Shown here in pieces: positions 27,965 through 63,941 of a stretch of 64,000 nucleotides of DNA (within the stretch, counting starts at the first letter, position 1; each line of letters begins with the position of its first letter). The stretch is from contig NZ_QUNO01000005.1 of NCBI RefSeq assembly GCF_003387475.1, positions 186,001 to 250,000 on the forward strand, in the 5' to 3' direction. A model generated the notes under the pieces. That model had not been told where the DNA came from. It saw only the letters and a program-made list of their open reading frames with translations, and ran no database searches. This DNA comes from Kutzneria buriramensis (lineage in GTDB: Bacteria; Actinomycetota; Actinomycetes; Mycobacteriales; Pseudonocardiaceae). The translations under genes and the position numbers were made by a program.

Positions 27965-28915
27965 GTGGAGGTTCGCGACAAGGTGGTCGTGGTGACCGGG
28001 GCCGGCCGCGGCATCGGGGCGGCGCTCGCCCGCCGGTTCGCCGCCGAGGGCGCCGCCGGCATCGTCGTCTCCGACGTCAACGGCTCCGCTGCCACGGAGG
28101 TGGCCGCGTCGTTGGACCGTGCGATCGCCGTCGCCGCCGACGTCACCGACGCCGCACAGGTCGCGGCCCTGGTGACCGCCGCCGAGGAGGCCTTCGGCCC
28201 CGTCGACCTGTTCTGCTCCAACGCCGGCGTCGCCTTCGGGCGCGGCATGGACGCGTCGCCGACGGACTGGGCCACCAACCTGAACGTGAACGTGATGGCC
28301 CACGTGCACGCCGCCAACGCCGTGCTGCCGTCGATGCTGGCGCGGGGGCGGGGGTACTTCCTGAACACCGCGTCCGCCGCCGGGCTGCTGATGGCCCCCG
28401 GCGACGCCCCGTACACCGTGTCCAAGCACGCCGCGGTGGCGTTCGCTGAGTGGCTTTCGGTGACCTACGGCGACCGGGGCATCGGCGTCAGCGTCCTGTG
28501 CCCGATGGGCGTGCGGACCGACATGCTCATGCCCGGCATCGAGCAGGGCGACCTGTCCGCGCTGGCCGTCGCGGCCTTCGGCGACATCCTCGAGCCCGAC
28601 CAGGTCGCCGGCATCGTCGTCGAGGGGCTGGCGGCGGAGAAGTTCCACATCCTCCCCCACCCCGAGGTCGCCACCTTCGTCCAGCGCAAGGCCACCGACG
28701 TCGACCGCTGGCTGTCCGGCATGCGCCGCGCCGCCACCCAACTCCCCACCCCCCCAGGCCTGACCCCTCACCCCGGCGAGTCGCGCTCTCAAGCACACCG
28801 AATGCAGGTTTCGGGCAGATCCGAGCGTGGAGTCTCGTTTCTGCCCGAAACCGCATTTCGGTGTGTCTGTGAGCGCGACTCGCGGGGGTTGGAGGTCAGC
28901 CCAGCGACCGCTTGA
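27965..28915 (+). CDS. SDR-family oxidoreductase with repeat-derived C-terminal tail
   Basis: The 316-residue protein starts at GTG 27965 with AAGGAGG 7 nt upstream. TGAGRGIG, NAG and YTVSK are the SDR cofactor and catalytic motifs. A typical SDR would end near residue 265. Residues about 269-308 here are encoded by the hairpin repeat at 28771-28888, and the ORF even overlaps the end of the convergent peptidase gene. A 7-C run at 28749-28755 just before the repeat is a likely site of a past frameshift; in the shifted frame TGA 28761-28763 would end the protein. Confidence 0.8.
   Translation: MEVRDKVVVVTGAGRGIGAALARRFAAEGAAGIVVSDVNGSAATEVAASLDRAIAVAADVTDAAQVAALVTAAEEAFGPVDLFCSNAGVAFGRGMDASPTDWATNLNVNVMAHVHAANAVLPSMLARGRGYFLNTASAAGLLMAPGDAPYTVSKHAAVAFAEWLSVTYGDRGIGVSVLCPMGVRTDMLMPGIEQGDLSALAVAAFGDILEPDQVAGIVVEGLAAEKFHILPHPEVATFVQRKATDVDRWLSGMRRAATQLPTPPGLTPHPGESRSQAHRMQVSGRSERGVSFLPETAFRCVCERDSRGLEVSPATA
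28771..28888. repeat. Dispersed hairpin repeat, copy A (complete)
   Basis: The outer arms CGAGTCGCGCTC (from 28777) and GAGCGCGACTCG (to 28882) pair. Inner arms CACACCGAA..GTTTCGGGCAGA and TCTGCCCGAAAC..TTCGGTGTG pair with small offsets, leaving a central loop of about 20 nt. Total about 118 bp. It lies in the 3' end of the SDR gene and abuts the stop of the convergent S9 peptidase. See copies at 37761, 45801 and 63873. Confidence 0.85.
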
Positions 28916-30965
28916 GGAAGTCCACCTGCAGCAGCAGGAGGTTTTCGGCGACCTGTTCCTGCGGGGTCATGTGGGTGACGCCGGACAGCGGCAGCACGGT
29001 GTGCGGGCGACCGGCGGCGAGCAGCGCGGAGCTGAGGCGGAGGGTGTGCGCGGCGACCACGTTGTCGTCGGCCAGACCGTGAATGATCATCAGGTCCCGG
29101 CTGAGCTTGGACGCGTCCTCGATGAGCGAGTTGGCGTCGTACACCTCGGGCCGCTCGTCGGGATGCCCGAGGTACCGCTCGGTGTAGTGGGTGTCGTAGA
29201 GCCGCCAGTCCGTCACCGGCGCCCCGGCGATGCCGGCTCGGAAGACGTCGGGACGCCGGAGCACGGCCAGCGCGGACAGGTAGCCACCGTACGACCAGCC
29301 CCGGATGGCGACGCGCGACAGGTCCAGGAACGGGAACTGCTCCGCCGCAGCGTGCAGGCCGTCGACCTGGTCCTCCAGGGTCGCCCCGGCGAAGTCGAAG
29401 TGGATGGCCCGCTCCCACGCCGGCCCCCGCCCGGGCGTGCCCCGGCCGTCCACGACCAGCACGGCGAAGCCCTGATCGGCCAGCCACTGCGAAGCGGTGA
29501 AGCCGTTGCGGGTCTGCATCACCCGCTGGGCATGCGGCCCGCCGTACGGGTCCAGCAGCACCGGCAGCTTGCCGTCCACGTACCCGGTGGGCAGCAACAG
29601 CGCCCCGCGCAGGCCCCGCTCCCCCAGCGCCAGCAGCGTGACATTGGGCGTGATCGACGGCGTCTCGGCGAGCGACGCGATCTCGCACACCTTGCTGTCG
29701 CCACGGAAAACCTCAGTCACGGCCCCGAAGTGGCCCAGGCCGCTGCCGACCCGCACGGTCACGTCGCCGCCCCGCGCGATGGCGTGCACGCCGTCGCCGA
29801 CGGACAGCCGCTCCACGCCGTCCTTGCGAACCCGGAACACGTGGATCTGCGTCGAGTCGGCGTCGTGCCCCCGAACCAGAATATCTTCGGTCGTCACTGA
29901 AGTCACAGTGTGCACGTTGAACGAGTCATCGGTACGGATCTCGTCGCCGACCACGAGCCGCCAGAAGCCGTCGATGGCGGCGATCCGGACCAGGGCGCCG
30001 TCCGAGGTCCACGCCGGCCAGCCCGGCTTGATGTCGACCCAGTCCTGGTCGGTCTCCTCGTGCAGCACGGACGTCGCGCCGGTGTCAGGGTCGACGGTCA
30101 GCACCCGCTGCGTCCGCTGGTCCCGCGTCTGCACGAGCAGCAGCGGCGGACCGCCGGCCGACCAGTGCGCGGTCGCAAGGTACGGGAAGGCGGCTCGATC
30201 CCAGTCCACGTCCACCCGGCTGCCGTCGACGCCCAGCACCGACACGCTCACGTCCGCGTTGGCGGTGCCGGCCGCCGGGTAGGCGATCTCCGCCGGCGTC
30301 CGGCCGGGATTGGCCGGGTCGGCGATGTGCCAGCGCTGCACCGGGCTGTTGTCGACCCGCGCCGCCAGCAGCCGCTCGCCGTCGGGCGCCCACCAGTAGC
30401 CGCGGAACCGGTCCATCTCCTCGGCGGCGATGAACTCCGCGACGCCCCAGGTCACCTCGTCGCCGTCCGGCACGGCCAACGCCCGGTCGCCCGAGCCGTC
30501 GACGCCGACCACCCGCAGCTCCCCGGCCGTCACGGCGTACGCGACGTGCCGGCCGGTCGGGTCGGGGCGGGGGTCGATCACCGGGCCGGGCGTGGGCAGC
30601 TCCGCGGTCGCGCCGGTGGCCAGGTCGGTCACGTGCACCTTGCCGGACAGCGCGAACGCCGCCACGGTCATCGCCCGGTCGGTGGCGTACCCGACGACAC
30701 CGGCGGCCTGCTCCCGGCTGCGCTCGCGGCGCGCCCGCTCCTCCGGCGACAGCTCCTCGCTGTCGGCGAACGGGTCGAACAGCGGGGACTCCTGCCCCGT
30801 CTCGACGTCCAGGCTCCACAGGCCGGTGCGACGGTCGGTGCCCGACGCGGAGCGGAGGAACAACACCCGGGATCCGTCCGGTGCGACGGTGAACGCCCTG
30901 GGCACGCCCAACGAGAAGCGCTGGGTGCGGGCCTGCTGGCGCGGAAAGGACAGTTCAGCGGTCAC
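28896..30965 (-). CDS. S9 family dipeptidyl-peptidase IV-like serine peptidase
   Basis: The 689-residue protein starts at GTG 30965. An N-terminal beta-propeller carries EFIAAEEMDRFRGYWW, the double-Glu motif that anchors the substrate N terminus in DPP4. The C-terminal hydrolase domain has Ser558 (GWSYGGY), Asp633 (HGLADDNV) and His665 (GVTHMT). It probably removes X-Pro or similar dipeptides. No signal peptide is seen, so it is likely cytosolic. Monocistronic; its stop is 8 bp beyond the hairpin repeat. Confidence 0.9.
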   Translation of the reverse strand: MTAELSFPRQQARTQRFSLGVPRAFTVAPDGSRVLFLRSASGTDRRTGLWSLDVETGQESPLFDPFADSEELSPEERARRERSREQAAGVVGYATDRAMTVAAFALSGKVHVTDLATGATAELPTPGPVIDPRPDPTGRHVAYAVTAGELRVVGVDGSGDRALAVPDGDEVTWGVAEFIAAEEMDRFRGYWWAPDGERLLAARVDNSPVQRWHIADPANPGRTPAEIAYPAAGTANADVSVSVLGVDGSRVDVDWDRAAFPYLATAHWSAGGPPLLLVQTRDQRTQRVLTVDPDTGATSVLHEETDQDWVDIKPGWPAWTSDGALVRIAAIDGFWRLVVGDEIRTDDSFNVHTVTSVTTEDILVRGHDADSTQIHVFRVRKDGVERLSVGDGVHAIARGGDVTVRVGSGLGHFGAVTEVFRGDSKVCEIASLAETPSITPNVTLLALGERGLRGALLLPTGYVDGKLPVLLDPYGGPHAQRVMQTRNGFTASQWLADQGFAVLVVDGRGTPGRGPAWERAIHFDFAGATLEDQVDGLHAAAEQFPFLDLSRVAIRGWSYGGYLSALAVLRRPDVFRAGIAGAPVTDWRLYDTHYTERYLGHPDERPEVYDANSLIEDASKLSRDLMIIHGLADDNVVAAHTLRLSSALLAAGRPHTVLPLSGVTHMTPQEQVAENLLLLQVDFLKRSLG

Positions 30966-30993
30966 CGGCTGACCCTATCCGGCCAGCCGCCGG

Positions 30994-31452
30994 TCACGCC
31001 GCCGCTATCTCGGCGTAGCCGCGCAGGATGCCGGCCCAGCCGCCGTCGCCGCCGACGCCGCGGGCGACCGCCTCCCAGTCGCCGCCGTGCCGCTCCAGGT
31101 GCCGGTGCTCCAGCTCGACGCGGGTCACGTCCGGGCCCTCGGCGACGAACCGGATCTCCACCTCGCTGGCCTTGGCCGGGTCGGGGTCGTACGCCCACTC
31201 GCCGTTGAGGTGCCAGCTCACCACCACGCGGTTCGGCGGGTCGTAGACCAGCACGGTGCCCCAGTCGCACTGGCTGCCGTCCACGCCGCGCTCGTACCAG
31301 CGGCCGCCCTCCCGCTGCTCCAGGATCGCCTCGGCCATGTCGGCCTTGCCGATGTGGTGGGTGGACGGCCACCAGGTGGTGAAGCCCGCGGTGAAGACCT
31401 TGAACGCGTGCTGCTGTCCGGCCTTGACGGTGACGCTCTTGGTCACGCTCAT
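30994..31452 (-). CDS. SRPBCC (AHSA1-type) domain protein
   Basis: The 152-residue protein has the START/Bet v1-like pattern of Activator-of-Hsp90-homologue-1-like proteins: VTVKAGQQHAFKVFTAGFTTWWP at the start and EGPDVTRVELEHRHLERHGGDW near the end. These form a hydrophobic cavity, with unknown ligand. It overlaps the ArsR gene by ATGA; ArsR-SRPBCC pairs are a common actinomycete unit in which the regulator controls the partner. Confidence 0.82.
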   Translation of the reverse strand: MSVTKSVTVKAGQQHAFKVFTAGFTTWWPSTHHIGKADMAEAILEQREGGRWYERGVDGSQCDWGTVLVYDPPNRVVVSWHLNGEWAYDPDPAKASEVEIRFVAEGPDVTRVELEHRHLERHGGDWEAVARGVGGDGGWAGILRGYAEIAAA

Positions 31453-31769
31453 GACGGCTCCTCAGGTGTGTTCTCGACGGCGGCCGCGAAGGCCGCCAGT
31501 GCTCGGTCCCACACCAGGTCCAGGTAGGCGCGCAGGGCCGCGACCCCGTTCGGGTCGACCCGGTACAGCCGCCTGGTGCCGACCGCCTCGTCGACCACCA
31601 GCCCGGCGTCCTTGAGCACCTTGAGGTGTTGGGACACGGCCGGACGGCTGATCGGCAGCTCGCGGGCGAGCTCGCCGACCGCCTTCGGCCCGGTGGCCAC
31701 CAGCTCGAAGATCGCCCGTCTGGTGGGATCGCCGAGCGCCCCGAGCCCGTCGGTTCGGTAAGTCGCCAC
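31449..31769 (-). CDS. ArsR-family regulator
   Basis: The protein is 106 residues from GTG 31769. The winged helix LGDPTRRAIFELVATGPKAVGELARELPISRPAVSQHLKVLKDAGLV is typical. No metal-binding cysteine motif is present, so it belongs to the non-metal group found with AHSA1 proteins. An upstream in-frame start at 31805 would read through its own operator, so GTG 31769, probably leaderless, is preferred. Confidence 0.85.
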   Translation of the reverse strand: MATYRTDGLGALGDPTRRAIFELVATGPKAVGELARELPISRPAVSQHLKVLKDAGLVVDEAVGTRRLYRVDPNGVAALRAYLDLVWDRALAAFAAAVENTPEEPS

Positions 31770-31774
31770 GAACC

Positions 31775-31790
31775 GTAAGCTACGACTTAC
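31775..31790 (-). promoter_or_regulatory. ArsR operator
   Basis: GTAAG-N6-CTTAC is an inverted repeat 5 bases upstream of the ArsR start codon. Its size and place fit autoregulation by the ArsR protein. Confidence 0.55.
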
Positions 31791-31832
31791 CAAGCCGGCC
31801 GTCAAGTCCCGAACGCAGTGAAACCATCAAGC

Positions 31833-32444: not shown

Positions 32445-32472
32445 CGGGTGCGCCGCGTGCGGCAGAACAGGT

Positions 32473-35264: not shown

Positions 35265-35331
35265 CTTGCTCCTCCTGTCGTGGAACCGGACCCGCAAGCG
35301 AGTGTGGGGCCGGGCGGCACGCCGCCACCAT

Positions 35332-35364
35332 GGACAACCTGTAGCGGGTTGACCGGCCTAGACT
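35332..35364. promoter_or_regulatory. PucR operator and leaderless promoter
   Basis: GGACAACC (35332-35339) and GGGTTGACC (35346-35354) form a near-perfect inverted repeat in the divergent region between the aminotransferase and PucR genes. A -10-like TAGACT (35359-35364) sits 6 bp before the PucR GTG start, so that mRNA is probably leaderless. Confidence 0.5.
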
Positions 35365-35370
35365 GACACT

Positions 35371-36984: not shown

Positions 36985-36994
36985 GTTCTCGGTC

Positions 36995-37765
36995 GTGGCG
37001 GAAACCTATGCGAGCGGGCCGTTCGCGGCGACGATTCCCACCGAGCAGGAGCGGCTCCGGATGCTGGAGCGCTTCCGCGATCCGGACACGGCGGCGCTGC
37101 TCGAGTCGTTGCCGGTGCAAGAATCCTGGCGGTGCCTGGAGATCGGGGCCGGCACCGGCTCGGTGACCCGCTGGCTCGCATCCCGGTGCGCGCACGTCAC
37201 CGCCGCCGATCTGGACGTCCGGCACCTGAAGCCGACGGCGAACGTCGAGGCGCTGGAAACCGACGTCACCACACATTCCTTCGCGCCGGGTTCCTTCGAC
37301 CTGATCCACGCCCGGGCGGTGATGTGCCATCTGCCCTCACGGGACGAGGTCGTCGAGCGGGCGTTGCAGTGGCTGACGCCCGGCGGCTGGTTCGTGGTCG
37401 AGGACGTCTACACCCTGCCGGTCGGCTCCAGCCCGTATCCGGCGATGAACGTCTACGCCCGCGCCGCCGCCGACTCCGCCCGGGCCCGCGGCGCCGACAT
37501 GCAGTGGGGCACCCGCCTGCCCGGCATCATGGCCCAGCTCGGCTACGTGGACGTCCACGTCGAGACCAAGCCCCGCATGATCGGCCTCGGCGGCCTCGCC
37601 GACGACCTGTGGCGGCTGAACCTCCGGCAGGCCGGCCCGCACCTGATCGCCAAGGGCCTGTTCACCGAGGCGGCGCTGACCGAGTGCCTGGACCTGATCG
37701 ACGACCCGACCTTCGTGGACGTCCGCTACATCGGCATCTCCGTCCGGGCCCGCAAGCCTGCCTGA
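36995..37765 (+). CDS. SAM-dependent class I methyltransferase
   Basis: The 256-residue protein starts at GTG 36995, 10 bp after the PucR stop. The SAM motif is CLEIGAGTGSVTRWLA (about 46-61), with the acidic AADLD at about 69-73. A methyltransferase-25/UbiE-like fold with LTPGGWFVVED follows. Substrate unknown. The stop codon lies at the edge of the hairpin repeat 37761-37800. Confidence 0.82.
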   Translation: MAETYASGPFAATIPTEQERLRMLERFRDPDTAALLESLPVQESWRCLEIGAGTGSVTRWLASRCAHVTAADLDVRHLKPTANVEALETDVTTHSFAPGSFDLIHARAVMCHLPSRDEVVERALQWLTPGGWFVVEDVYTLPVGSSPYPAMNVYARAAADSARARGADMQWGTRLPGIMAQLGYVDVHVETKPRMIGLGGLADDLWRLNLRQAGPHLIAKGLFTEAALTECLDLIDDPTFVDVRYIGISVRARKPA

Positions 37766-37800
37766 AACCTACATTCGGTGTGCCGCTGAGCGCGACTCGC
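37761..37800. repeat. Dispersed hairpin repeat, copy B (one arm only)
   Basis: CTGAAACCTACATTCGGTGTG..CTGAGCGCGACTCGC matches the right half of copies A and C; the left half is absent. It forms the junction between the convergent methyltransferase and membrane-protein genes, and the last nine codons of the latter (ESRSAAHRM) are written by it. Confidence 0.8.
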
Positions 37801-38935
37801 CGACGATGGCGGCGAAGCCGACGGTGCGGGGGTCGGACCAGACGGCGGTGACGGGACGGAGCCAGAGCAGCTCGGACGGGGCGTCGGTGCCGCCCTGGCG
37901 CACCAGGTCGAGGGGATCGGTGGCCATCGGGACGCCGGCGGCGTGCACGGCCAGCGCGACGCGCAGCCAGCAGGCGGTGGTCATCGGCCCCATCACCTCG
38001 GGCGGCACGTCGGACACGAGGATCTCGAGCTGGGCAAGGTCGGACGGCTGAATCCAGTCGTTCAGGATGAGCATGCCGTCGCGGATCTCGACCAGCCTCC
38101 GGTGCAGGCGCAGCTGGCTGTTCTGCGGCAGCACGGCGTCGACGAACCGCGAACGCGGCGGGTGGAGGGCGATGTGCGGCACGGCGGTGACGAGCGCCTT
38201 CCACATGGGGTACAAGGCATTGGCGCTGCGCCACGCCGACAGGCCCAGGAAGAACGGCACGAAGGCGGCGATGGAGCAGCCCAGCGACACGCCGATGGTG
38301 TGCGGCGACGAGACGTACGTGCCGAAGGTGACCGCATACGCGGAACCGCCGAACGCCGCGAAGAACCGGCTCACCACGAAGACGAAGAACCCCAGCGATC
38401 CCACGATCAGCAGCACCAGCGGAGTCCGCACCAGCCAGGACCGCACGCGACGGAACGCCCGCAGCAGCAGGAAGAACGTGGCGGCGGTCGCAATCCCCTG
38501 ATACGAAAGGTAGACGACCCAGTACAGGTCCAGCACCGACAAGGTCCCCGGCACCGGGAAGAAGTGCGGGCGGGCCACCCCGCCGCCGGCCTGGAACACC
38601 ACGAACGACACGATCATCACGAAAACCGTGACACCGCAGGACATCCAGCGCAACCACGGGGAGATCCGCACCTCGGCGGCGCGGGCGGCGAACGTCAGCA
38701 GGGTGGCGGCGACGCCGACGGCGGCCACGCTGGAGATCAGGTTCTCCACGTCCGGGTTGCCGGTCAGCCCCTGGAGAAACGCGTTGGTGTCCTTCTGGAG
38801 CATGGTGATCCCGAGCGCCAACAGCAGCAGCGCGAACCACAGCGGCCGCTGGCTGCGCGACCGCAGCGCCGACACGCGCACCACCACGACGATCCAGCAC
38901 AGGTAGAGCAGAACCGTCTGGATGACGTCAGTCAC
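37769..38935 (-). CDS. Multi-pass membrane protein of the MAB_1171c type
   Basis: The protein is 388 residues from GTG 38935, overlapping the ImmA gene by 8 bp. About seven hydrophobic segments fill residues 1-245, followed by a cytosolic C-terminal domain with LHRRLVEIRDGMLILNDWI. This resembles the MAB_1171c family (called putative transporter; function not established), which I know as a frequent neighbour of ImmA/IrrE and XRE genes in actinomycetes. Its C-terminal tail comes from repeat copy B. Confidence 0.75.
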   Translation of the reverse strand: MTDVIQTVLLYLCWIVVVVRVSALRSRSQRPLWFALLLLALGITMLQKDTNAFLQGLTGNPDVENLISSVAAVGVAATLLTFAARAAEVRISPWLRWMSCGVTVFVMIVSFVVFQAGGGVARPHFFPVPGTLSVLDLYWVVYLSYQGIATAATFFLLLRAFRRVRSWLVRTPLVLLIVGSLGFFVFVVSRFFAAFGGSAYAVTFGTYVSSPHTIGVSLGCSIAAFVPFFLGLSAWRSANALYPMWKALVTAVPHIALHPPRSRFVDAVLPQNSQLRLHRRLVEIRDGMLILNDWIQPSDLAQLEILVSDVPPEVMGPMTTACWLRVALAVHAAGVPMATDPLDLVRQGGTDAPSELLWLRPVTAVWSDPRTVGFAAIVGESRSAAHRM

Positions 38936-44811: not shown

Positions 44812-45801
44812 ATGGATTTCGGCGTTGTGCTGCAAACGGATCCGCCGGCTCGGGACGTGGTGGAGATGATGAAGGCCGCCGAGGCCGGCGGCTTCGCGTA
44901 CGGCTGGACGTTCGACTCGGTCGTGCTGTGGCAGGAGCCGTTCGTCATCTACTCGCAGATCCTGGCCGCGACCTCGTCGCTCGTGGTCGGGCCGATGGTC
45001 ACTAACCCGAGCACCCGGGACTGGTCGGTGACCGCGTCGCTGTTCGCCACGCTGAACGACATGTTCGGCAACCGGACCGTGTGCGGCATCGGCCGCGGCG
45101 ACTCCGCGCGGCGGGTGATCGGCCAGAAGCCGGCGACGCTGGCGACGCTGGGCGAGGCGATGCACGTGATCAAGGAGCTGGCCGAGGGGCGGGAGGTCGA
45201 CCACCACGGGGTGCCCGTGCGGATCCCGTGGGTGCGCGACGGCAAGCTGGAGATGTGGATGGCCGCGTACGGGCCGAAGGCGCTGAAGCTGGTCGGCGAG
45301 CAGGCCGACGGCTTCATCCTCCAGACCGCCGACCCCGACATCGCCCGCTGGACCATCGGCTCCGTGCGGGAGGCGGCCGCCGCCGTCGGCCGTGACCCGT
45401 CGGCCGTGAAGATCTGCGTCGCCGCGCCGGCGTACGTCGGGTCGGATCTCGCACACCAGCGGGACCAGCTGCGGTGGTTCGGCGGCATGGTCGGCAACCA
45501 CGTCGCCGACCTCGTCTCCCGGTACGGCGAGGGCGGCGGGGTGCCGAAGGCGTTGACCGACTACATCAAGGGTCGGGAGGGCTACGACTACTCCCACCAC
45601 GGGCGCGCCGGCAACCCGTCGACGGACTTCGTCCCCGACGCCATCGTCGACCGCTTCTGCCTGGTGGGCCCCGAATCCGCCCACCTGGACCGCCTCCAGG
45701 AACTCGCCGCCCTGGGCGTCGACCAGTTCGCCCTCTACCTCATGCACGACGACCGCGACAAAACCCTGGCCGCCTACTCCACCCTCATCCCCTCCGTCTG
45801 A
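44812..45801 (+). CDS. F420-type LLM oxidoreductase (TIGR03842-like)
   Basis: The 329-residue protein begins MDFGVVLQTDPPARDVVEMMKAAEAGGF and has VGPMVTNPSTRDWSVTASLFATLNDMFGNRTVCGIGRGDSARRV, the pattern of the TIGR03842 group. It lies 12 bp after hydA in the same operon. No dihydropyrimidine dehydrogenase (PreA/PreT or DPYD) gene is in the window, so it may supply the reductive first step or act on a related heterocycle. That is inference. Confidence 0.8.
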   Translation: MDFGVVLQTDPPARDVVEMMKAAEAGGFAYGWTFDSVVLWQEPFVIYSQILAATSSLVVGPMVTNPSTRDWSVTASLFATLNDMFGNRTVCGIGRGDSARRVIGQKPATLATLGEAMHVIKELAEGREVDHHGVPVRIPWVRDGKLEMWMAAYGPKALKLVGEQADGFILQTADPDIARWTIGSVREAAAAVGRDPSAVKICVAAPAYVGSDLAHQRDQLRWFGGMVGNHVADLVSRYGEGGGVPKALTDYIKGREGYDYSHHGRAGNPSTDFVPDAIVDRFCLVGPESAHLDRLQELAALGVDQFALYLMHDDRDKTLAAYSTLIPSV

Positions 45802-45922
45802 ACCCCCGCGAGTCGCGCTCGGCACCAGACCGAACGTAGGTTTCGCGCAGATCCGAGACTCCAGGCTCATTTCTGCCGGAAACCTACATTCGCTCTGCCC
45901 GTGAGCGCGACTCGCGGGGGTT
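45801..45922. repeat. Dispersed hairpin repeat, copy C (complete)
   Basis: The outer arms are perfect over 20 bp: AACCCCCGCGAGTCGCGCTC (45801-45820) against 45903-45922. The inner arms GTAGGTTTC and GAAACCTAC (45836-45844 and 45879-45887) also pair. It starts at the last base of the stop codon of the LLM gene. The element is about 122 bp and would fold as one long hairpin on either strand. Confidence 0.9.
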
Positions 45923-49466: not shown

Positions 49467-49468
49467 CC

Positions 49469-50913: not shown

Positions 50914-51267
50914 ATGAGCCACGCACTGGAGTCGAAGACCGGCGTCGACGGGCCGGTCACCCTGATCAAGAACTACGCGGTGCCGGCGGCCGAAGCCGAG
51001 CACTTCGTCGAGGTGTACCGGGAGAACGCCCGGATCATGTCGACCCAGCCCGGCTTCGTGCGGTCCCGCCTGCACCGGGCGCTCGCCGACGCGCCCGAGG
51101 CGCGGTTCGTGCACGTCGCCGACTGGAGCTCGGGCACCGCGCTCGACCGGGCCACCGCCAATCCCGAGTGGCTCGCCTCGCTGCGACGCATGTTCGACGA
51201 TCCCGGCCTGCACATCACCTCGGAGCCGGCCGCCTACCGCGTCGCCGTCGAACTCCACCCCTTCTGA
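50914..51267 (+). CDS. Antibiotic-biosynthesis-monooxygenase (ABM) domain protein
   Basis: The protein is 117 residues from ATG 50914; GTG 50896 would add six. It has one ferredoxin-like ABM domain: VTLIKNYAVPAAEAEHFVEVYRENARIMSTQPGFVRSRLHRAL, then FVHVADWSSGTALDRA. ABM proteins include cofactor-free monooxygenases and IsdG-type haem enzymes; the catalytic residues are not diagnostic. It is followed by a 14-bp-stem hairpin. Confidence 0.7.
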   Translation: MSHALESKTGVDGPVTLIKNYAVPAAEAEHFVEVYRENARIMSTQPGFVRSRLHRALADAPEARFVHVADWSSGTALDRATANPEWLASLRRMFDDPGLHITSEPAAYRVAVELHPF

Positions 51268-51272
51268 CCAGA

Positions 51273-51333
51273 GTTGCCACATGCGCGCTCTTCGCGTGGC
51301 GTCAGGACGCAAATGGGAAGCGCATGTGGCAAC
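51273..51333. repeat. 61-bp hairpin element between convergent genes
   Basis: GTTGCCACATGCGC (51273-51286) pairs perfectly with GCGCATGTGGCAAC (51320-51333). The 33-nt centre contains a weaker GCGT/ACGC pair. On the plus strand AAAAGC follows. It sits between the stops at 51267 and 51342, so it may terminate both, but the stem is longer and looser than the other terminators here and looks like a mobile palindromic element. Confidence 0.6.
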
Positions 51334-51341
51334 AAAAGCGG

Positions 51342-53932: not shown

Positions 53933-53975
53933 AATGCCGTACCGCATGTGACCCACGTCATGAGACGTTGACGGC

Positions 53976-54800: not shown

Positions 54801-54968
54801 TGGTCACCGGGATGAGCTGAATGCCTGATCACGGGCGGTGAGCGGCACTGCTCCACCCCGGTCTTTTTCACCTTGAACCTTGTGTCGAACGAAGTTCCTT
54901 GGTTGTGTCTGGCCGGTTGACACCAAAGCCGCCGCCGTTCATCACCGTGAACAAAGGAAGTTCGTGTG

Positions 54969-56453
54969 ATGCGCCCTCGCCTGTTGTTGACGATCGCCGT
55001 CGCGGCGGCCGCGATCGCGGTCCCCGCCACCGGCCGAGCCACCACGGCCCCGGCCGTCGGATCCGCCCCACCGCCCAATCCCACCAGCGTGCACGAGTGG
55101 CTGACGATGCCGGACGTGACGACGCCGACGGACACTCAGCTGCCGCTCAACGACACCGTCACCAAGGCGCCCGTGACCGTGCACGTCGACGGAGGCGTCA
55201 GGTACCAGTCGGTGTCCGGGTTCGGCGCCGCGATCACCGACTCGTCCGCGCACGTGCTCTACGGCCTCACGCCGGACGCCCGCGACCAGGTGATGCGGAA
55301 CCTGTTCGACCCGAGAACCGGCGCCGGCCTCAGCTTCCTGCGCCAGCCCATCGGCGCCTCGGACTTCGCCGTCGGCCAGGACTACAGCTACGACGACATG
55401 CCGGCCGGCCAGACCGACTACCAGCTGCGGCACTTCTCCATCGCCCACGACGAGGCGCAGATCCTGCCGCTGGTGCGCCAGGCGCTGAAGCTCAACCCGC
55501 GCATCCAGATCGTGGCCAGCCCGTGGAGCATGCCGGGCTGGATGAAGACCTCCGGCTCCATGATCGACGGCAATCTCATCGACGACCCGAGGATCTACCG
55601 CGCCTACGCGCTGTACCTGGTGAAGTTCATCCAGGCCTACCAGCGGGCCGGCGTGCCGGTGGACTACATCACCGTGCAGAACGAGCCGCAGGCGTTGGAA
55701 CGCAAGAACTATCCCGGCACCGACCTGCCGTGGGAGCAGGAGGCCAAGGTCATCGAGGCGCTCGGGCCGGCGATCCGCGCGGCCGGGCTGCACACCAAGA
55801 TCCTCGCCTTCGACCACAACTGGACCGAGCATCCCGGCGACATCTCCTCGCACCAGCGCGCCAACGAGGACCCGGAGCCGAACTACCCGTACGACCTGCT
55901 CGGCACCGACGCCTACCGGTGGGTGGCCGGCACCGCGTACCACTGCTACTTCGGCGACCCGACCGCGCAGACCGGCCTGCGGGCGTCCTTCCCCGACAAG
56001 GACATCTTCATGACCGAGTGCGAGGGCGGCGACTCCTCGACGGTCATCGGCGTGATGCAGAACTGGGGCCGCAGCTCCATCGACTGGAACATCGCGCTGG
56101 ACGAGAACCACGGCCCGCACCTGGGCGGTTGCGGCAGCTGCAACGGCACGATCACCGTCAACTCGGTGACGCACGAGGTCACCTACAACGACCAGTACCG
56201 GGATCTCGGGCACTTCTCCCGGTTCGTGCCGGCCGGCGCCGTGCACATCGGCAGCACCGTGGACACCACGTCCAGCAAGGGCGCGCCGCTGACCACGGTC
56301 GCGTTCACGGACCCCGACCACTCCACGGTGCTGGTGGCCCTGAACACCGGCGCCACCACGCAGAACTTCACCGTCGTCTACGGAACCCACTCGTTCGACG
56401 CCACCCTGCCCGCCGGCGGGACCGTCACCTTCCAGTGGTCCGCGATCCACTGA
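54969..56453 (+). CDS. Secreted GH30 glucosylceramidase-like enzyme
   Basis: The protein is 494 residues from ATG 54969 with AAGGAAG 8 nt upstream. Signal peptide about 1-25. The GH30 barrel has Glu239 (TVQNEPQ) as acid/base and Glu350 (FMTECEGG) as nucleophile. It shares the family with the 10460 protein but lacks a ricin module and differs through most of the barrel, so it is an old paralog. A gapped inverted pair GTGTC/GACAC at 54905-54923 upstream may be an operator. Confidence 0.87.
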   Translation: MRPRLLLTIAVAAAAIAVPATGRATTAPAVGSAPPPNPTSVHEWLTMPDVTTPTDTQLPLNDTVTKAPVTVHVDGGVRYQSVSGFGAAITDSSAHVLYGLTPDARDQVMRNLFDPRTGAGLSFLRQPIGASDFAVGQDYSYDDMPAGQTDYQLRHFSIAHDEAQILPLVRQALKLNPRIQIVASPWSMPGWMKTSGSMIDGNLIDDPRIYRAYALYLVKFIQAYQRAGVPVDYITVQNEPQALERKNYPGTDLPWEQEAKVIEALGPAIRAAGLHTKILAFDHNWTEHPGDISSHQRANEDPEPNYPYDLLGTDAYRWVAGTAYHCYFGDPTAQTGLRASFPDKDIFMTECEGGDSSTVIGVMQNWGRSSIDWNIALDENHGPHLGGCGSCNGTITVNSVTHEVTYNDQYRDLGHFSRFVPAGAVHIGSTVDTTSSKGAPLTTVAFTDPDHSTVLVALNTGATTQNFTVVYGTHSFDATLPAGGTVTFQWSAIH

Positions 56454-56462
56454 CTTTTTGAC

Positions 56463-56515
56463 GCAGGGAAGGACGCCTTACCCTCGTTGAGCGAGGGTAA
56501 GGCGTCCTTCCCTGC
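56463..56515. terminator. 24-bp perfect hairpin between convergent genes
   Basis: Bases 56463-56486 pair without mismatch with 56492-56515 around the loop TTGAG; the stem includes GGAAGGACGCCTTACCCTC. It fills the space between the stops at 56453 and 56518. It works as a bidirectional terminator, though the stem is twice as long as needed. Confidence 0.8.
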
Positions 56516-56517
56516 AT

Positions 56518-57363: not shown

Positions 57364-57481
57364 CGTCCACCAAACAGTCGTCTGTTCGTCAGGAATCAGG
57401 CGAACCTAGGGGTTGACCGGGTAGACCGTCCAGACCAACCACGTGACGAATTGTTTCGGGACCGATTCTTGTGAACGAAAG

Positions 57482-59101: not shown

Positions 59102-59142
59102 GCGCTCATAGTGACCCAGCGGGCCTCGCCGGTGAAAATCAG

Positions 59143-60099
59143 TTACTTGGCGGGGTCGAGCACCAGCTTGCCGGCGGTCTTGCGGGACCGGATGTCCAGG
59201 TGCGCCTGCTGCACGTCGGTGAGCGCGTAGTCGCCGCCGAGCAGCGGCTTGAGCTTGTTGGTGGCGACGAGCCCGAACAGCTCGTTCATGGCGTCGCGCA
59301 TCATCTCGGGGCGGCGGAAGCAGTCCTGGAGCCAGAAGCCGATCACCGACTTGGAGTGCGCCATCAGCTTGTTCACCGCGACCGGCGAGCCGGTCTCGCG
59401 CGACGCCGCGCCGTAGGCGACGAGCCGGCCGAAGCTGTCCAGGGCGCTCAGCGAGGCGTCGAACACGCCGCCGCCGGTCATCTCCAGCACGATGTCGACG
59501 CGCTTGCCGCCGTTGGCCTCGATCAGGCGCTCGGCCAGCGTGTCGGTCGGGTCGGCGTCGATCGCCACGTCCGCGCCGAGGTCGACGGCCAGGCCCCTTT
59601 TGCCGTCCGAAGAGGCAGTGCCGATGACGCGGCCGGCGCCCCACAGCTTGGCCAGCTGGACGGCGAGCGTGCCGACACCGCCGGCGGCGGAGATCACCAC
59701 GACCGACTCGCCGACCTGCATGTGCGAGGACGTGCGCAGCAGGTGCCAGGCGGTCGCGCCCTGCACGATCAGCGCGAGCGCCGCGGCGTCGGACACGCCG
59801 TCGGGCACGTCGAAGGCCAGCCGCTCGTGGGCCAGCGCGAACTCGGCGTAGCCACCGCCCGCGCTCAGGGCCACCACGCGGCGGCCGTCCTCGGTGCGTC
59901 CGACGATCTCGCCGCCCGGGATGAAGGGCAGCTTCTGCGCGGCCAGATAGGAGTTCTCCGCCTGGTGCGTGTCGGCGTAGTTGATGCCGGCCCGATCCAC
60001 CTTCACCAGCAGCTGACCGTCGCCGGGCACCGGCTTCGGCAGCTCCACCACCTTCAGCACCTCGGGGCCGCCGAACTCCGTGACCTGAACCGCTCGCAC
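59143..60099 (-). CDS. Quinone oxidoreductase-like MDR alcohol dehydrogenase
   Basis: The protein is 318 residues from GTG 60099 with GAAGGAG 8 nt upstream. MRAVQVTEFGGPEVLKVVELPKPVPGDGQLLVKV-type opening, NYADT, and VVISAAGGVGTLAVQLAKLWG as NADPH-binding site. There are no zinc-ligand cysteines, as in zeta-crystallin/QOR. It reduces quinones or enones. Divergent from a TetR gene, a common arrangement. Confidence 0.87.
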   Translation of the reverse strand: MRAVQVTEFGGPEVLKVVELPKPVPGDGQLLVKVDRAGINYADTHQAENSYLAAQKLPFIPGGEIVGRTEDGRRVVALSAGGGYAEFALAHERLAFDVPDGVSDAAALALIVQGATAWHLLRTSSHMQVGESVVVISAAGGVGTLAVQLAKLWGAGRVIGTASSDGKRGLAVDLGADVAIDADPTDTLAERLIEANGGKRVDIVLEMTGGGVFDASLSALDSFGRLVAYGAASRETGSPVAVNKLMAHSKSVIGFWLQDCFRRPEMMRDAMNELFGLVATNKLKPLLGGDYALTDVQQAHLDIRSRKTAGKLVLDPAK

Positions 60100-60121
60100 C
60101 GCGTTGACTCCTTCGTCGCCG

Positions 60122-60152
60122 TTCCGTACGGCGTACGGTACAGTGTACGGAA
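60122..60152. promoter_or_regulatory. TetR operator between divergent genes
   Basis: TTCCGTAC (60122-60129) and GTACGGAA (60145-60152) are a perfect 8-bp inverted pair with 15 bp between, and further GTAC words inside (60133, 60138). It overlaps the A of the TetR ATG. The product of 60152-60823 is the likely binder and would control the quinone oxidoreductase as well. Confidence 0.65.
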
Positions 60153-60823
60153 TGACGACGACAGCCCGGACGAGGGTGCCCCGCAACACACTGAGCGCGG
60201 AGCTCATCGTCACCGCCGCGCTGGGCCTGCTCGACCGGACCGGGATCGAGCAGTTCAGCGTGCGCGCGCTGGCCAAGGAGCTCGGGGTCGCGCCGATGAC
60301 GCTCTACACCTACTTCCGCGGCAAGGACGAGCTGCTCGACGCCGTGCGCGACCACGCGCTCGCGGCCGCCGCGCTGACCACCGCGTACGGCGGCTGGCAG
60401 CACCAGGTGCGCACCATCTGCCGGCGGCTGCGCGGCCAGATCCTGGAGCACCCGTGCCTGACCTCGCTGCTCCAGCAGCGGCCGCTGGCCGGGCACGAGT
60501 CCGCCGAATCGGCCGAGTCGCTGCTGCGGGCCCTGGTCGAGGCCGGTTTCGACGTGGAGAACGCGGCGCGGGCGTACACCACGCTGCTGGGCTTCGTGGT
60601 CGGCGTGACCACGCTGGAGGTCCGGCTGCTGGAGGAGAACCGCGACCCGGAGCGCCGCGAGAAGGTGCGGGAGATCATGTCCGGGCTGCCCGCCGACCGC
60701 TATCCCACGCTGGTCGAGCACACCGCCGCGCTGCGCCACACCGTCGGCGGGGACACCCAGTTCGAGTTCGGGTTGGACCTGGTGATCGCCGGCATGGAGC
60801 AGCGATTGATACTTGTCCCGTGA
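60152..60823 (+). CDS. TetR-family regulator
   Basis: The protein is 223 residues from ATG 60152. The helix-turn-helix reads LLDRTGIEQFSVRALAKELGVAPMTLYTYFRGKDELLDAV. The C-terminal domain with the long helix HTVGGDTQFEFGLDLVIAGMEQRL is like TetR_C_1 (TetR class). Probably leaderless, as the operator abuts the start. Its stop overlaps the thioesterase start. Confidence 0.86.
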   Translation: MTTTARTRVPRNTLSAELIVTAALGLLDRTGIEQFSVRALAKELGVAPMTLYTYFRGKDELLDAVRDHALAAAALTTAYGGWQHQVRTICRRLRGQILEHPCLTSLLQQRPLAGHESAESAESLLRALVEAGFDVENAARAYTTLLGFVVGVTTLEVRLLEENRDPERREKVREIMSGLPADRYPTLVEHTAALRHTVGGDTQFEFGLDLVIAGMEQRLILVP

Positions 60824-61350
60824 ACAAGGTGGAGCTTCCCGAGGGTGCGGTGCTGCCGACCCGGCACCCCGACGCGCCCGCGCCCGGCGAGGAACTGCCC
60901 GTGCACTACTCGCAGTGCTTCGCGTGCGGCGGCACGGAGAGCGGCCTGCACATGCGGGTCCGGGCCGGCGAGGGGCTGACCGTGCAGGGCCGGTTCCTGG
61001 TCACCGACCACCACCAGGGCGCGCCCGGGCTGGCCCATGGCGGGCTGCTGGCCTGCGCGTTCGACGAGGTGCTCGGCATGCTGGGGATGCTCACGCACAT
61101 CCCGGCCGTCACCGGCCGCCTTGAGACGGATTTCCGGCGCCCGGTGCCCGTCGACTCCACGCTGCACATCCACGCCCAGGTCGACGGCGTGGCCGGCCGC
61201 AAGATCTACACCAGCGCGGCGGGCCGGCTGAACGCCGAGGACGGCCCGGTCGCGCTGACCGCCCAGGGCCTGTTCATCGAGGTCGGGCTGGAGCACTTCC
61301 GCAAGCACGGCCGCGGCCTCGAGGGCCGCGACTTCGAGGTCAACCCCTAG
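60820..61350 (+). CDS. PaaI-type hot-dog thioesterase family protein
   Basis: The 176-residue protein starts at GTG 60820 overlapping the TetR stop. HYSQCFACGGTESGLHMRVRAGEG and APGLAHGGLLACAFDEVLGML are the hot-dog signature, with Asp/Glu of AFDEV as catalytic candidate. It would hydrolyse an acyl-CoA. The coupling to a TetR gene suggests induction with the quinone oxidoreductase. Confidence 0.8.
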   Translation: MNKVELPEGAVLPTRHPDAPAPGEELPVHYSQCFACGGTESGLHMRVRAGEGLTVQGRFLVTDHHQGAPGLAHGGLLACAFDEVLGMLGMLTHIPAVTGRLETDFRRPVPVDSTLHIHAQVDGVAGRKIYTSAAGRLNAEDGPVALTAQGLFIEVGLEHFRKHGRGLEGRDFEVNP

Positions 61351-61386
61351 GGCCTGCGACTTCGACGCAGCCCTCGACCTTCCCTC

Positions 61387-62412
61387 TCAACCCCTGACCC
61401 CGGCCTCGCGCGACAGGGCGATCAGCCGGGACACGGCCCGCAGGTACTTCTTGCGGTAGCCGCCGCGCAGCATCTCCTCGGTGAACAGCTCCGACAGCGG
61501 CTGCCCGGACACCGCGACCGGAACCGCCCGGTCGTACAGCCGGTCGGCGAACGCCACCAGCCGCAGCGCCACGTCCTGGTCCGGCGCGGGGTGCACTTGC
61601 TTGAGGTGCACCGCCGCCACGTCGGTGACGAGCCGCCCGTAGCGGGACGGGTGCAGCTTCGCGAGGTGGGCGCAGAGCGCGTCGAAGTCGTCCAGAGTGG
61701 ACCCGGGCGTGCGCTCGGCGCTGGCGTCGAGTTGGTCGTCGGACATCGGCTCCGGCGCGTCGGGCAGGCCGCGGTGCCGGTAGTCGGGACCGTCCACCCG
61801 CACCACGTCGAACCGCGCCGACAGGCTGCGGATCTCGCGCAGGAAGTCGTCGGCGGCGAACCGCCCCTCCCCCAGCTTCTCCGGCAGCGTGTTGGAGGTC
61901 GCCGCGACAAACGTGCCGGCGTCGGTCAGCTCCTGGAGCAGCCGGGTGACCAGCGTGGTGTCGCCGGGGTCGTCCAGCTCGAACTCGTCGATCGCGAGCA
62001 GCCGGTGCTCCGACAGCCGCTTGACCGCCTCCACGAACCCCAGCGCGCCGACCAGGTGCGTCAGCTCCACGAAGGTGCCGTACGCCTTCGGGCCGGGCAC
62101 CGCGTGCCACAGCGAGGCCAGCAGGTGCGTCTTGCCGACGCCGAAGCCACCGTCCAGGTACAGCCCGCGCTTACCGGCCGGCTCCTTGCCCGCGAACAGC
62201 GACTTCACCCACGACTTCGACTTCGCGGCGGCCGCGATCTTGTCGGCGAAGGTGCGGCCGGAGATCACGGCGGCGGCCTGGCTCGGCTCGTGCGGATTGG
62301 GCAGGTAGCTGTCGAAGCTGACGTCGCCGAAGCGCGGCGGCGGGACCATGGCCGCGACGATCTCGTCCCCGCTGATCGTGGGATGACGGTCGATCAGGCG
62401 CGGGGTGGTCAT
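61387..62412 (-). CDS. zapE: ZapE/AFG1-like AAA ATPase
   Basis: The protein is 341 residues from ATG 62412. Walker A GGFGVGKTH (88-96), the family motif YLDGGFGVGKTHLLASLWHAVP, Walker B LLAIDEFELDDPGDT and the C-terminal GGYRKKYLRAVSRLIAL are present. ZapE is a cell-division-associated ATPase in proteobacteria; in actinobacteria its role is not set. A GC-rich convergent space separates it from the thioesterase. Confidence 0.88.
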   Translation of the reverse strand: MTTPRLIDRHPTISGDEIVAAMVPPPRFGDVSFDSYLPNPHEPSQAAAVISGRTFADKIAAAAKSKSWVKSLFAGKEPAGKRGLYLDGGFGVGKTHLLASLWHAVPGPKAYGTFVELTHLVGALGFVEAVKRLSEHRLLAIDEFELDDPGDTTLVTRLLQELTDAGTFVAATSNTLPEKLGEGRFAADDFLREIRSLSARFDVVRVDGPDYRHRGLPDAPEPMSDDQLDASAERTPGSTLDDFDALCAHLAKLHPSRYGRLVTDVAAVHLKQVHPAPDQDVALRLVAFADRLYDRAVPVAVSGQPLSELFTEEMLRGGYRKKYLRAVSRLIALSREAGVRG

Positions 62413-62445
62413 GCCCGAATCGTAGTGTCGTGCTGGGATGGAGCC

Positions 62446-63192
62446 GTGCGGATGCTCCTGCCTCACGACGGTGAGATCGACGACACCGAGCTGGAACGGC
62501 TCTACGACTACCCGCCCGAGCTGGACCGGCCCTGGGTGCAGGTGAACTTCGTCTCCAGCCCGGACGGCGCGGTCACCGTCGGCGGCAAGTCGCAGGGCCT
62601 GTCCGGTCCCGCCGACAAGAAGGTGTTCATGCTCGGCCGGACCCTGGCCGACGTGGTGCTGGTCGGCGCGGGCACCGCCGCCATCGAGGGCTACGAGGGC
62701 GTCAAGGCCGGCGAGGTGCGGGCCGCCGCCCGCGCGCGGCTCGGCCTCAGCCCGGTGCCGCCGATCGCCGTGGTCACCCGACGGGCCACCATCGACCCGG
62801 AAGCGCCGCTGATCACCGACGCCGCCGTGCCGACGATCGTGCTGACGTGTCTGGCCGCCTCCGAGGAGCGCCGAACCGCGCTGGCCGACGCCGGCGCGGA
62901 CGTCGTCGTCACCGGGGACGCCGATGTGGATCTGCCGGTGGCGCTGGCCGAGCTGGACAAGCGCGGGCTGCGGCGGGTCAGTTGCGAGGGCGGGCCGCAT
63001 CTGTTCGGCGGGCTGATCGAGGCCGGGCTGGTCGACCAGCTGTGCCTGACCGTGTCGCCGGTGCTCGCCGGCGGCGACGCCAGCCGCATCGCCGTCGGGC
63101 CACCGCCCGTCGCACCGCGGGAGTTGGAGCTCGCCTCCGTGCTCACCGACGACGGCTTCCTCATGCTCCGGTACCGCTCACGGCGGTCGTGA
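62446..63192 (+). CDS. RibD C-terminal/pyrimidine-reductase-family protein
   Basis: The protein is 248 residues from GTG 62446, or 246 from ATG 62452 which has the better-spaced GGAG. VQVNFVSSPDGAVTVGGKSQGLSGPADKKVF and VSCEGGPHLFGGLIEAGLVDQLCLTVSPVLAGG are the DHFR-fold RibD_C signatures that bind NADPH. It lacks the deaminase half of RibD. It could act in riboflavin synthesis or reduce another substrate. Divergent from zapE with 33 bp between. Confidence 0.85.
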   Translation: MRMLLPHDGEIDDTELERLYDYPPELDRPWVQVNFVSSPDGAVTVGGKSQGLSGPADKKVFMLGRTLADVVLVGAGTAAIEGYEGVKAGEVRAAARARLGLSPVPPIAVVTRRATIDPEAPLITDAAVPTIVLTCLAASEERRTALADAGADVVVTGDADVDLPVALAELDKRGLRRVSCEGGPHLFGGLIEAGLVDQLCLTVSPVLAGGDASRIAVGPPPVAPRELELASVLTDDGFLMLRYRSRRS

Positions 63193-63339
63193 CGGGTTCT
63201 CTTGCACCAGCGGGTTCGTCCGTTCGCGGGCTGACCCCGGTGCCGGTTCCTGCCGATACGATCTGGTTGGGCGTCTGAACTCGTCGACGTGATCTAATGA
63301 TCTTGTTGTCGGCTGAAGCAGTTCGGTCGGGGGTGAGCA

Positions 63340-63870
63340 TTGCCGCGTCACGTCCAGCCGCGGGCCGGGTCCAGGGCCCGTACCGAGGCCTGTCTCGTGG
63401 ACTGTCTGGTCGCGCTCGCCTGGCTGCTGCTGCTCGGCGGCGTCGCGATCGGACTGCGTCGATTAGGCCTCGAACCGCACTGGTCCGCCACCAGCGAGCT
63501 GTCCGCCGACCTGGCCGCCCTCGCGCTCGGGCTGCTGCCCGTCGGCATCTACCTCGTGCTGTCCGAGAACGGCCGGCTCCAGGGCAGCCTCGGCAAACGC
63601 CGCGTCGGCCTGCGCGTGGTCCGTGCCGACGGCACCCGCGCCAACGCCTGGCAGCTCGCCATGCGCACCGCCATCAAGCTGTTCCCGTGGTTCCTCGCGC
63701 ACCTCGGCCTCAGCCGGGTGTGGATGCACCTGGGCACCCAGCAGACCGCCTGCCTCTGCCTCGCCTGCGTCTACGTCATCGTGCCCATCAGCATCGGCCT
63801 GGCCCTCGTCCACCCCCAGCGCCGCGCCCTCCACGACTGGCTGACCGGCACCCGCGTGATAGCCGACTGA
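63340..63870 (+). CDS. RDD-family membrane protein
   Basis: The 176-residue protein starts at TTG 63340 after GGGGTGAG. The RDD pattern is ARTEACLVDCLVALAWLLLLGG, then GSLGKRRVGLRVVRADG and LHDWLTGTRVI, with four hydrophobic segments. Role unknown; some family members have been linked to ion exchange. Leu42 is a TTA codon (63463-63465). The hairpin repeat copy D begins three bases after its stop. Confidence 0.82.
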   Translation: MPRHVQPRAGSRARTEACLVDCLVALAWLLLLGGVAIGLRRLGLEPHWSATSELSADLAALALGLLPVGIYLVLSENGRLQGSLGKRRVGLRVVRADGTRANAWQLAMRTAIKLFPWFLAHLGLSRVWMHLGTQQTACLCLACVYVIVPISIGLALVHPQRRALHDWLTGTRVIAD

Positions 63871-63872
63871 CC

Positions 63873-63941
63873 CACCCCCGCGAGTTCGCCCAGAAATCAA
63901 GCACAGCGGGACAGAGCGAATGTGGGTTTCAGGCAGAAGAT
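63873..63941. repeat. Dispersed hairpin repeat, copy D (rearranged)
   Basis: CACCCCCGCGAGT is the outer arm of copies A and C. After a divergent centre, GAGCGAATGTGGGTTTCAGGC then AGAA matches the reverse complement of the inner right arm of copy C at 22 of 25 positions. The second outer arm is missing. It begins directly after the RDD stop codon. Confidence 0.65.

Follow-up and report, generated by a model that had tools for sequence, protein, structure and literature searches.

A Dispersed Family of 49-bp Repeat Units and Hairpin Elements near Gene Ends in Kutzneria

Introduction

Repetitive extragenic palindromic (REP) sequences and bacterial interspersed mosaic elements (BIMEs), with their GTAG and CGTC families, are short extragenic units that occur singly or as inverted pairs, in high copy number and often behind genes. 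Miniature inverted-repeat transposable elements (MITEs) are non-autonomous, palindromic and dispersed, and possess terminal inverted repeats. Here, we describe a repeat family that is like both in these respects and was recognized in a stretch of 64,000 nt from Kutzneria buriramensis (genome G000, contig C5, positions 186001-250000; hereafter the window). The genome comprises 12.0 Mb, with 71% GC in the stretches that were read. The first-pass annotation of the window had described four copies of a hairpin repeat, and all four were found, with refined coordinates (Table 1). We tentatively favor the reading, drawn from sequence comparison, that they may belong to a non-autonomous mobile hairpin family that was renewed in species-specific waves at gene ends and is tolerated or used there as 3'-end punctuation.

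The family is closest in kind to REP/BIME and to MITEs and departs from each of them at a defining test. Unlike REP sequences, the Kutzneria 49-bp unit is not a palindrome tagged with GTAG or CGTC and does not fold alone (two units tested), its outer end is often flush with a stop codon in a fixed orientation, and its versions show species-wide turnover at conserved places; moreover, no REP-associated tyrosine transposase (RAYT) was found in G000. Unlike MITEs, half-units stand alone or stacked, no target duplication was present at the one comparable junction, and a limited scan revealed no parent insertion sequence.

Mycobacterial interspersed repetitive units (MIRUs) are described in PMC12548453 as actinobacterial short repeats, apparently mobile, which are inserted at gene boundaries with little harm to genes, namely at start codons and with a coupled open reading frame. 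Unlike these, the Kutzneria repeats sit behind genes, mostly where two genes converge (28 convergent and 21 tandem junctions among 54 clusters). With intrinsic terminators, the full Kutzneria elements share the GC-rich hairpin behind genes, but mostly lack a U-rich tail. Integron attC sites such as the Vibrio cholerae repeats (VCRs) are imperfect hairpins of about 120 bp that follow stop codons, exist in species-specific versions and carry important unpaired bases; in contrast, the Kutzneria copies are not arranged in arrays, occur in both orientations, are accompanied by no integrase over the cut-off and have different end motifs. DNA uptake sequences occur in hundreds of copies, in species-specific dialects and as inverted pairs at gene ends, whereas the Kutzneria unit is much longer.

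The first-pass annotation knew of no named family with these arms. Rfam 15 at gathering score gave no match in the window, the literature that was searched yielded no description of this hairpin family, and the 11-bp core of the arm appeared in the searched literature only in papers on other subjects.

Results

Copy number, basic unit and spread of the family

The 13-mer GCGAGTCGCGCTC from the arm was matched 193 times (97 + 96) in the genome of G000, compared to 7 times (4 + 3) for the reversed control. Thus, the abundance of the arm is not due to chance, and further copies exist, as had been predicted from the four in the window. For the 14-bp arm, G000 gave 156 occurrences, and the 199 other sampled genomes of the taxonomic family had 0-4 each; it is scarce in relatives because these differ at one base of the arm. 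A profile search for half-units detected 84 of them at E<=0.01 in 1.25 Mb of G000. Since these stretches had been picked with arm hits in view and are enriched in exact arms (59 of the 193), an estimate of about 300 half-units for the whole genome is fairer than direct scaling. A model re-estimated on relatives gave, at E<=0.05, 85 half-units in 54 clusters for these stretches, i.e., 29 solo units, 16 inverted pairs and 9 stacks or mixtures. In a sample of 1.65 Mb, 45 of 79 clusters were not paired. Overlap with a called gene by more than 20 nt was seen for 10 of 130 half-units.

The basic unit is polar and 49 bp long (ACCCCCGCGAGTCNCGCTC...GGGCAG) and occurs singly, in tandem or in inverted pairs. 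Where units abut a stop codon, the ACCCCC end is the one turned to the gene. It is laid out as an outer part ACCCCCGCGAGTC-N-CGCTC, a variable part, CCGAAT... and an inner part GGTTTCGGGCAG; its ends are ACCCCC and GGCAG, and GTAG occurs only internally. The 120-bp element consists of two inverted units, usually with a 22-bp palindromic middle, and forms an imperfect hairpin. Exactly 120 bp were measured for 12 of 21 inverted pairs in the 1.25 Mb, and three pairs had 98 bp (2 x 49).

Seven genomes of the genus were searched (G000, G057, G109, G126, G142, G019 and G087). With model R2, at least 30 scored candidates were obtained in each of five Kutzneria species and, under strict filters, none in G019 and G087. 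Outside the genus, one or two weak matches were present in 3 of 193 genomes. In Pseudonocardia, the core GCGAGTCG makes tandem arrays with a repeat of 21-22 bp, a spacing of about two helical turns. At 18 such loci, which were found via the arm itself and represent no survey, 107 of 119 GCGAGTCG sites were non-coding and 28 lay within 60 nt after a same-strand stop, with 16 occurrences of the reversed motif in all; among the arrays at loci L032, L037, L040, L041, L042, L044, L050, L055, L056 and L065, several begin 3-33 nt from a stop.

Conserved places carry species-typical versions

The comparison used five syntenic blocks, selected for the presence of elements in G000. For 11 G000 gene ends with the motif at most 32 nt from the stop, the orthologous end in four relatives was occupied in 26 of 44 comparisons, as opposed to 4 of 346 for gene ends without motif in G000. 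Two gene ends of Block A were occupied in G000, G109, G142, G126 and G057 and unoccupied in G019 and G087. In G019, GCGAGTCCCG follows one of the two Block A stops, and a weak hairpin of the same kind is present elsewhere in this genome.

The versions at these places differ by species. Among 221 unique half-units, base 14 was G in 129 of 159 from G000, A in 17 of 25 from G109 and 19 of 21 from G142, and C in 9 of 10 from G126 and all six from G057. At shared places where the G000 base is G, the base of the relative was A or C in 23 of 23 comparisons. The same-species share of nearest neighbors was 0.90 for G000, 0.51 for G109, 0.59 for G142, 0.40 for G126 and 0.17 for G057, with shuffled means of 0.71, 0.11, 0.09, 0.05 and 0.02, respectively; the value for G057 comes from six units and does not exceed the shuffled range, and that for G126 does so only barely.

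Hairpins at orthologous convergent junctions are cited junction by junction here, as many anchors are missing for a count. At site 1 of Block B, G057 has a C-type element (C at base 14) of 120 bp, and G000 has, in this order, the stop, a G-type unit, a C-type unit, a glyoxalase-like gene and remnants. G126 has its own hairpin, G142 one of the GGAAGGACGCC family and G109 a third kind, so that three species carry this repeat family and two carry unrelated hairpins. Further hairpin families behind G000 stops are of the GCAGGGAAGGACGCCTTACCC, GCCACATGCGCTTCC and TTGCTGGATTTCGATCGCCGC types, many of them 0-20 nt after the stop (e.g., 56453-56517 and 51267-51341 in the window).

Site 1 of Block C is occupied by C-type elements of 86-87 bp in G109 and G057. 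G000 has a 13-nt C-type stub beside the stop, followed by a G-type 120-bp element; in G126, the stop is adjoined first by an old-type unit and then by one of the G126 type. Site 2 of the same block is empty in G109 (TGA-CG-TCA) and G057 (overlapping stops, CTAG). At this site, 83 bp of hairpin lie between TGAC and GTCA in G126, and both an element and a gene are present in G000 and G142. Thus, looking for empty sites and target-site duplications, as the first-pass annotation had proposed, revealed one clean empty junction between species and no duplication at this one comparable junction (TGAC/GTCA, G126 versus G109). In G109, a long C run was observed between a stop and a half-unit (L230, near 7205-7220), as if the CCCCC end had slipped.

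Placement relative to stop codons

Genes were called with our own codon-model script. The outermost outer ends of clusters lay at -1 or 0 of the facing stop in 26 of 75 cases and at -2 to +8 in 40 of 75, where uniform intergenic placement expects 1.6; this uniform null ignores purifying selection in gaps, and sliding is the fair one. When clusters were slid within their own gaps (500 runs), a mean of 27 and a maximum of 34 came to lie near stops, compared to 39 observed. Element-free convergent gaps measured at most 10 bp in 94 of 197 cases, and occupied gaps minus the element in 14 of 29. Since the share of short gaps is the same once the element is subtracted, insertion between abutting stops explains much of the pattern.

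Convergent junctions harbored 28 of 54 clusters, compared to 226 of 1110 among all junctions (Fisher p 1e-7), and 21 of 54 clusters were at tandem junctions. In tandem contexts of the 1.65 Mb, the outer end of 15 of 18 unpaired clusters pointed at the 3' end of the upstream gene (p 0.008). Fisher values overstate significance, given the common ancestry of the relatives and the fact that one junction can contribute two ends. Nine of these 15 clusters lay at -1 to +8 of the upstream stop, with at least 21 nt remaining behind them. Insertion between abutting stops leaves this polarity in tandem contexts unexplained. Thus, the copies are not placed at random relative to gene ends, and the earlier suggestion that they target gene ends holds for the excess over the sliding null and for the polarity, while much of the remainder is due to abutting convergent genes. 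Pure stop-codon targeting was rejected, as the pattern is partly an effect of these genes. We also rejected the ideas that the stop codon belongs to the element and that TGA serves as a target word in the DNA, since copies away from gene ends are generally not preceded by TGA or TAA (judged by eye).

A mismatch is maintained at fixed positions of the stem

For the analysis of folding, 51 full elements of 120 bp were aligned without gaps (31 from G000, 9 from G109, 8 from G142, 2 from G057 and 1 from G126); the set was partly fetched for likeness to copy C of the window, and its lengths are therefore no sample. Pairing amounted to 94.6% in the outer stem (19 bp) and 84.0% in the inner stem (26 bp). 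In the actual elements, positions 20-28 were paired at 0.582, compared to 0.663 (sd 0.020) when right arms were re-dealt within species, and 0 of 2000 re-dealings were as low. The deficit was strongest at position 21 (0.24 versus 0.52, z -4.2) and position 22 (0.12 versus 0.39, z -4.3). Positions 50-60 showed a deficit as well (0.633 versus 0.694, 0 of 2000 as low), with position 52 strongest, and weaker deficits (z about -2) were observed at positions 6, 44, 53 and 59. The variable positions 14, 18, 27, 34-37 and 40-41 had none. With an independent tool, 500 of 500 shuffles paired at least as well as the elements.

Of the 51 full elements, 48 have a mismatch at position 21 or 22, and so have all 18 pairs that differ from these in length (20 of 2000 re-dealings as high for the latter). 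Selection against perfect palindromes could give mismatch generally, but not its fixed position. The mismatch is better read as a required internal loop. According to PMC3733652, pairing of the residues at the loop edge of REP hairpins abolished cleavage by RAYT. By analogy with such unpaired residues, the enforced mismatch may constitute a shape that is read by a recombinase or a binding protein.

Double-change cells between species numbered 58; shuffles yielded 37.7 and reached the observed number in 0 of 500 runs. Position 14, which changes in step with species, contributes much of this signal. In one-sided elements read along the transcript, 36 G-U pairs were counted versus 22 A-C mismatches, which is not significant by our reckoning and does not separate RNA from DNA as the acting form.

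The repeats may alternatively be inherited functional 3'-end elements, with RNA hairpins serving in termination, protection of the mRNA or release of ribosomes, that were homogenized within each genome by ectopic gene conversion, or changed together with a binding protein, and are not strongly mobile today. The conserved places (26 of 44 versus 4 of 346), the double changes between species, the other hairpin families at orthologous junctions and, without significance, the prevalence of G-U over A-C point in this direction. The empty junction and the side-by-side types, on the other hand, suggest an insertion step, inner parts such as those of the G126 type are too divergent for easy homology-dependent conversion, and the two solo units tested do not fold. 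We consider this explanation somewhat unlikely.

Search for a mobilizing enzyme

In a profile search, the Y1_Tnp domain (PF01797) was not found in G000 and five congeners; the sole match among the seven genomes of the genus was a partial one of 34 aa in G109, which at 23.8 bits scarcely exceeds the cut-off of 23. Mobilization of a REP/BIME family by a RAYT, i.e., a Y1 tyrosine transposase, would account for the solo and inverted-pair organization, the gene-end habit and the unpaired stem residues, all of which resemble REPs as described in PMC3733652 and PMC12306157. In the latter, REPs within 15 nt of a stop codon are also stated to be able to lower translation. With PF01797 missing from G000 and five congeners and the G109 match marginal, this explanation is very improbable, and RAYT mobilization was dropped as a candidate since PF01797 was not found in G000.

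No match to the integron integrase profile (TIGR02249) exceeded the cut-off in any of the seven genus genomes, and matches below it occurred in all seven and in all 14 controls. If the hairpins were folded recombination sites of the attC/VCR type, genes would be gained or lost as gene-plus-hairpin units. Hairpins with unpaired bases directly after stops, the single genes between some facing half-units, and the site of copy C, which holds one element in G000 and two, separated by about 3 kb, in G126, agree with this. However, the copies are dispersed in both orientations, the attC end motifs do not fit, and no genome had an integrase over the cut-off, for which reason an integron integrase was rejected as mobilizer; folded recombination sites of this kind are hardly to be expected here.

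Another type of mobility considered was that of a MITE of an ordinary DDE insertion sequence, whose transposase would recognize the outer arms of about 19 bp. Terminal inverted repeats, the recurrent length of 120 bp (12 of 21 pairs) and the high copy number are typical of such an element; solo 49-bp units with defined inner ends, tandem stacks and an occupied/empty junction lacking a target duplication are not. In addition, seven intervals between facing half-units were present in the 1.25 Mb, and no transposase was found among six genes, from five of these intervals, that were scanned by Pfam. We regard a DDE MITE as quite improbable. Facing half-units with a gene between them were also rejected as a gene-carrying transposon, since the six scanned genes belong to unrelated families or to none. 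Single genes (DUF559; glyoxalase-like) between facing half-units were observed at G000 C1:774076-775145 (L086) and L112:1484-2047; at L112, the gene lies between the half-units in G000, and the halves adjoin in G126 and G057.

A gene for a large serine recombinase with Resolvase and Recombinase domains was encountered at L124:8426-9955 (G000:C5:128426-129955). It starts about 70 nt past the outer end of a decayed half-unit (C5:128354); this is a single case and a lead at most. To our knowledge, few short palindromic repeats outside the RAYT group have a known enzyme.

The four copies in the window

Copies A and C are full elements, and copies B and D are single half-units (Table 1). The earlier description of complete copies as one rod on either strand was borne out for the strands folded, namely one of copy A and both of copy C. 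As RNA, copy A folded with -96.8 kcal/mol (z -14.1), copy C with -81.2 kcal/mol (z -11.4) and the reverse strand of copy C with -88.5 kcal/mol; as DNA, z was -13.7 for copy A and -9.5 for copy C.

Table 1. Repeat copies in the window and the stop codons next to them (window coordinates; unit positions counted from the outer end).
Feature	Position	Strand	Length	Remark
Copy A, full element	28770-28889		120 bp	two 49-bp units, the second inverted, around a 22-bp middle; G at position 14, as typical of G000
Stop codon of - strand gene (28896-30965)	28896-28898	-		6 nt to the right of copy A
Copy B, truncated single half-unit	37758-37802	-		both converging stops inside (37763-37765, 37769-37771)
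TGA stop immediately 5' of copy C	45799-45801	+		
Copy C, full element	45802-45921		120 bp	abuts stop of gene 44812-45801
Copy C outer stem, 5' arm	45802-45820	+		unit positions 1-19; partner 45903-45921
Copy C internal loop, 5' side	45821-45825	+		positions 20-24, opposite 45898-45902; enforced mismatch 21-22 (51 elements)
Copy C inner stem, 5' arm	45826-45851	+		positions 25-50; partner 45872-45897
TGA stop 3 nt ahead of copy D	63868-63870	+		
Copy D, single half-unit, GCGAGTTCGCCC variant	63874-63938	+		exceeds standard unit in length

Every copy had been said to begin at or near a stop codon or where two gene ends meet. This agrees with copy C (flush), copy D (3 nt) and the right end of copy A (6 nt), and calls for correction at copy B and on the left side of copy A. 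The remnant of copy B contains the stops of the two converging frames, at 37763-37765 and 37769-37771. Left of copy A, the TGA at 28761-28763 is out of frame relative to the reading frame of the orthologs, and the open frame of G000 crosses copy A and ends at 28915; our script miscalls the gene over this copy. The + strand frame 27965-28915, which spans all of copy A, apparently follows a change in the C run before the ancestral stop. About 40 nt behind copy D, a small - strand gene with tandem EYGLVQPDAT peptide repeats crosses the end of the window (G000:C5:249979-250345).

Discussion

The first-pass annotation had offered two guesses, a mobile element of MITE or REP kind and a 3'-end element. 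Mobility is suggested by copy number, species versions, the empty junction and side-by-side types, whereas an ordinary MITE is disfavored by the lack of a duplication at that junction and of a transposase among the six scanned genes, and a RAYT-driven REP by the absence of a Y1 match in G000. A role at 3' ends agrees with the convergent bias, the conserved places and the other hairpins in the same slot; the rarity of T-rich tails, the many unpaired clusters and the two tested solo units that do not fold speak against a classical intrinsic terminator. The tentatively favored reading, a mobile hairpin family renewed in waves, combines the two. Successive waves of active subfamilies may have re-invaded or overwritten the same gene-end slots. 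Insertion between converging stops would harm neither gene, and a hairpin at a gene end may be tolerated or even useful as two-way 3' punctuation, in termination, mRNA-end protection or blocking of read-through; slots would then be re-invaded because insertion there is harmless and the hairpin tolerated or useful.

Several observations weigh against this reading. These searches identified no mobilizing enzyme. There is only one clean occupied/empty junction, where gain or precise loss are both possible, and most intergenic regions cannot be aligned between species. At site 1 of Block B, the C-type unit of G000 is identical to the G057 unit at 42 of 49 positions (31 of 49 for the G-type unit), but the G057 unit has equally good matches among other units of G000, so that descent of the C-type unit from a G057-like unit is argued from place and type only. 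The order of units is equally mixed. In both G000 and G126, the old-type piece at site 1 of Block C is the one nearer the stop. Among seven tandem stacks in the 1.25 Mb, the G type was on the stop side of the C type in three, the order was reversed in one and three showed no contrast; thus, the placement of new units beside the stop is not a firm rule. Proximity to stops itself largely follows from the abutting of convergent genes.

The same holds for parts of the folding data. The two solo units that were tested folded worse than shuffles (z +2.0 and +1.5), and a T-rich tail (>=4 T in 8 nt) was present in 3 of 51 full elements on each side. Two of five covariation measures (pairs changed on both sides; further pair types) were not above shuffles. 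After re-dealing of right arms within species, the stems showed no excess pairing (0.927 versus 0.927 for positions 1-19; 0.763 versus 0.764 for positions 34-49; positions 29-33 likewise). The compensatory changes for which the first-pass annotation had suggested looking are hence present between species (58 versus 37.7), but are not matched by a within-species excess of pairing.

A bolder version would be a self-renewing boundary system, in which an enzyme reads the mismatched hairpin together with a stop edge or an existing copy and adds a polar unit beside or inside it. The gene ends of the genus would thereby be rewritten species by species by selfish hairpins in competition, which would have turned into cellular marks between convergent genes, and the GCGAGTCG arrays behind stops in Pseudonocardia would represent an older form. 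We think this unlikely.

The surprising features of the family are its rule against pairing and its slot-by-slot turnover. We know of no earlier case in repeat biology of a deliberate mismatch at fixed stem positions, and its maintenance at two such positions is a testable rule. A family for which no RAYT was found and which is placed flush with stops points to an unrecognized mobilizer. Finally, alignable gene ends in old-type, mixed, new-type and empty states across five species provide material for asking whether selfish repeats supply 3' punctuation.

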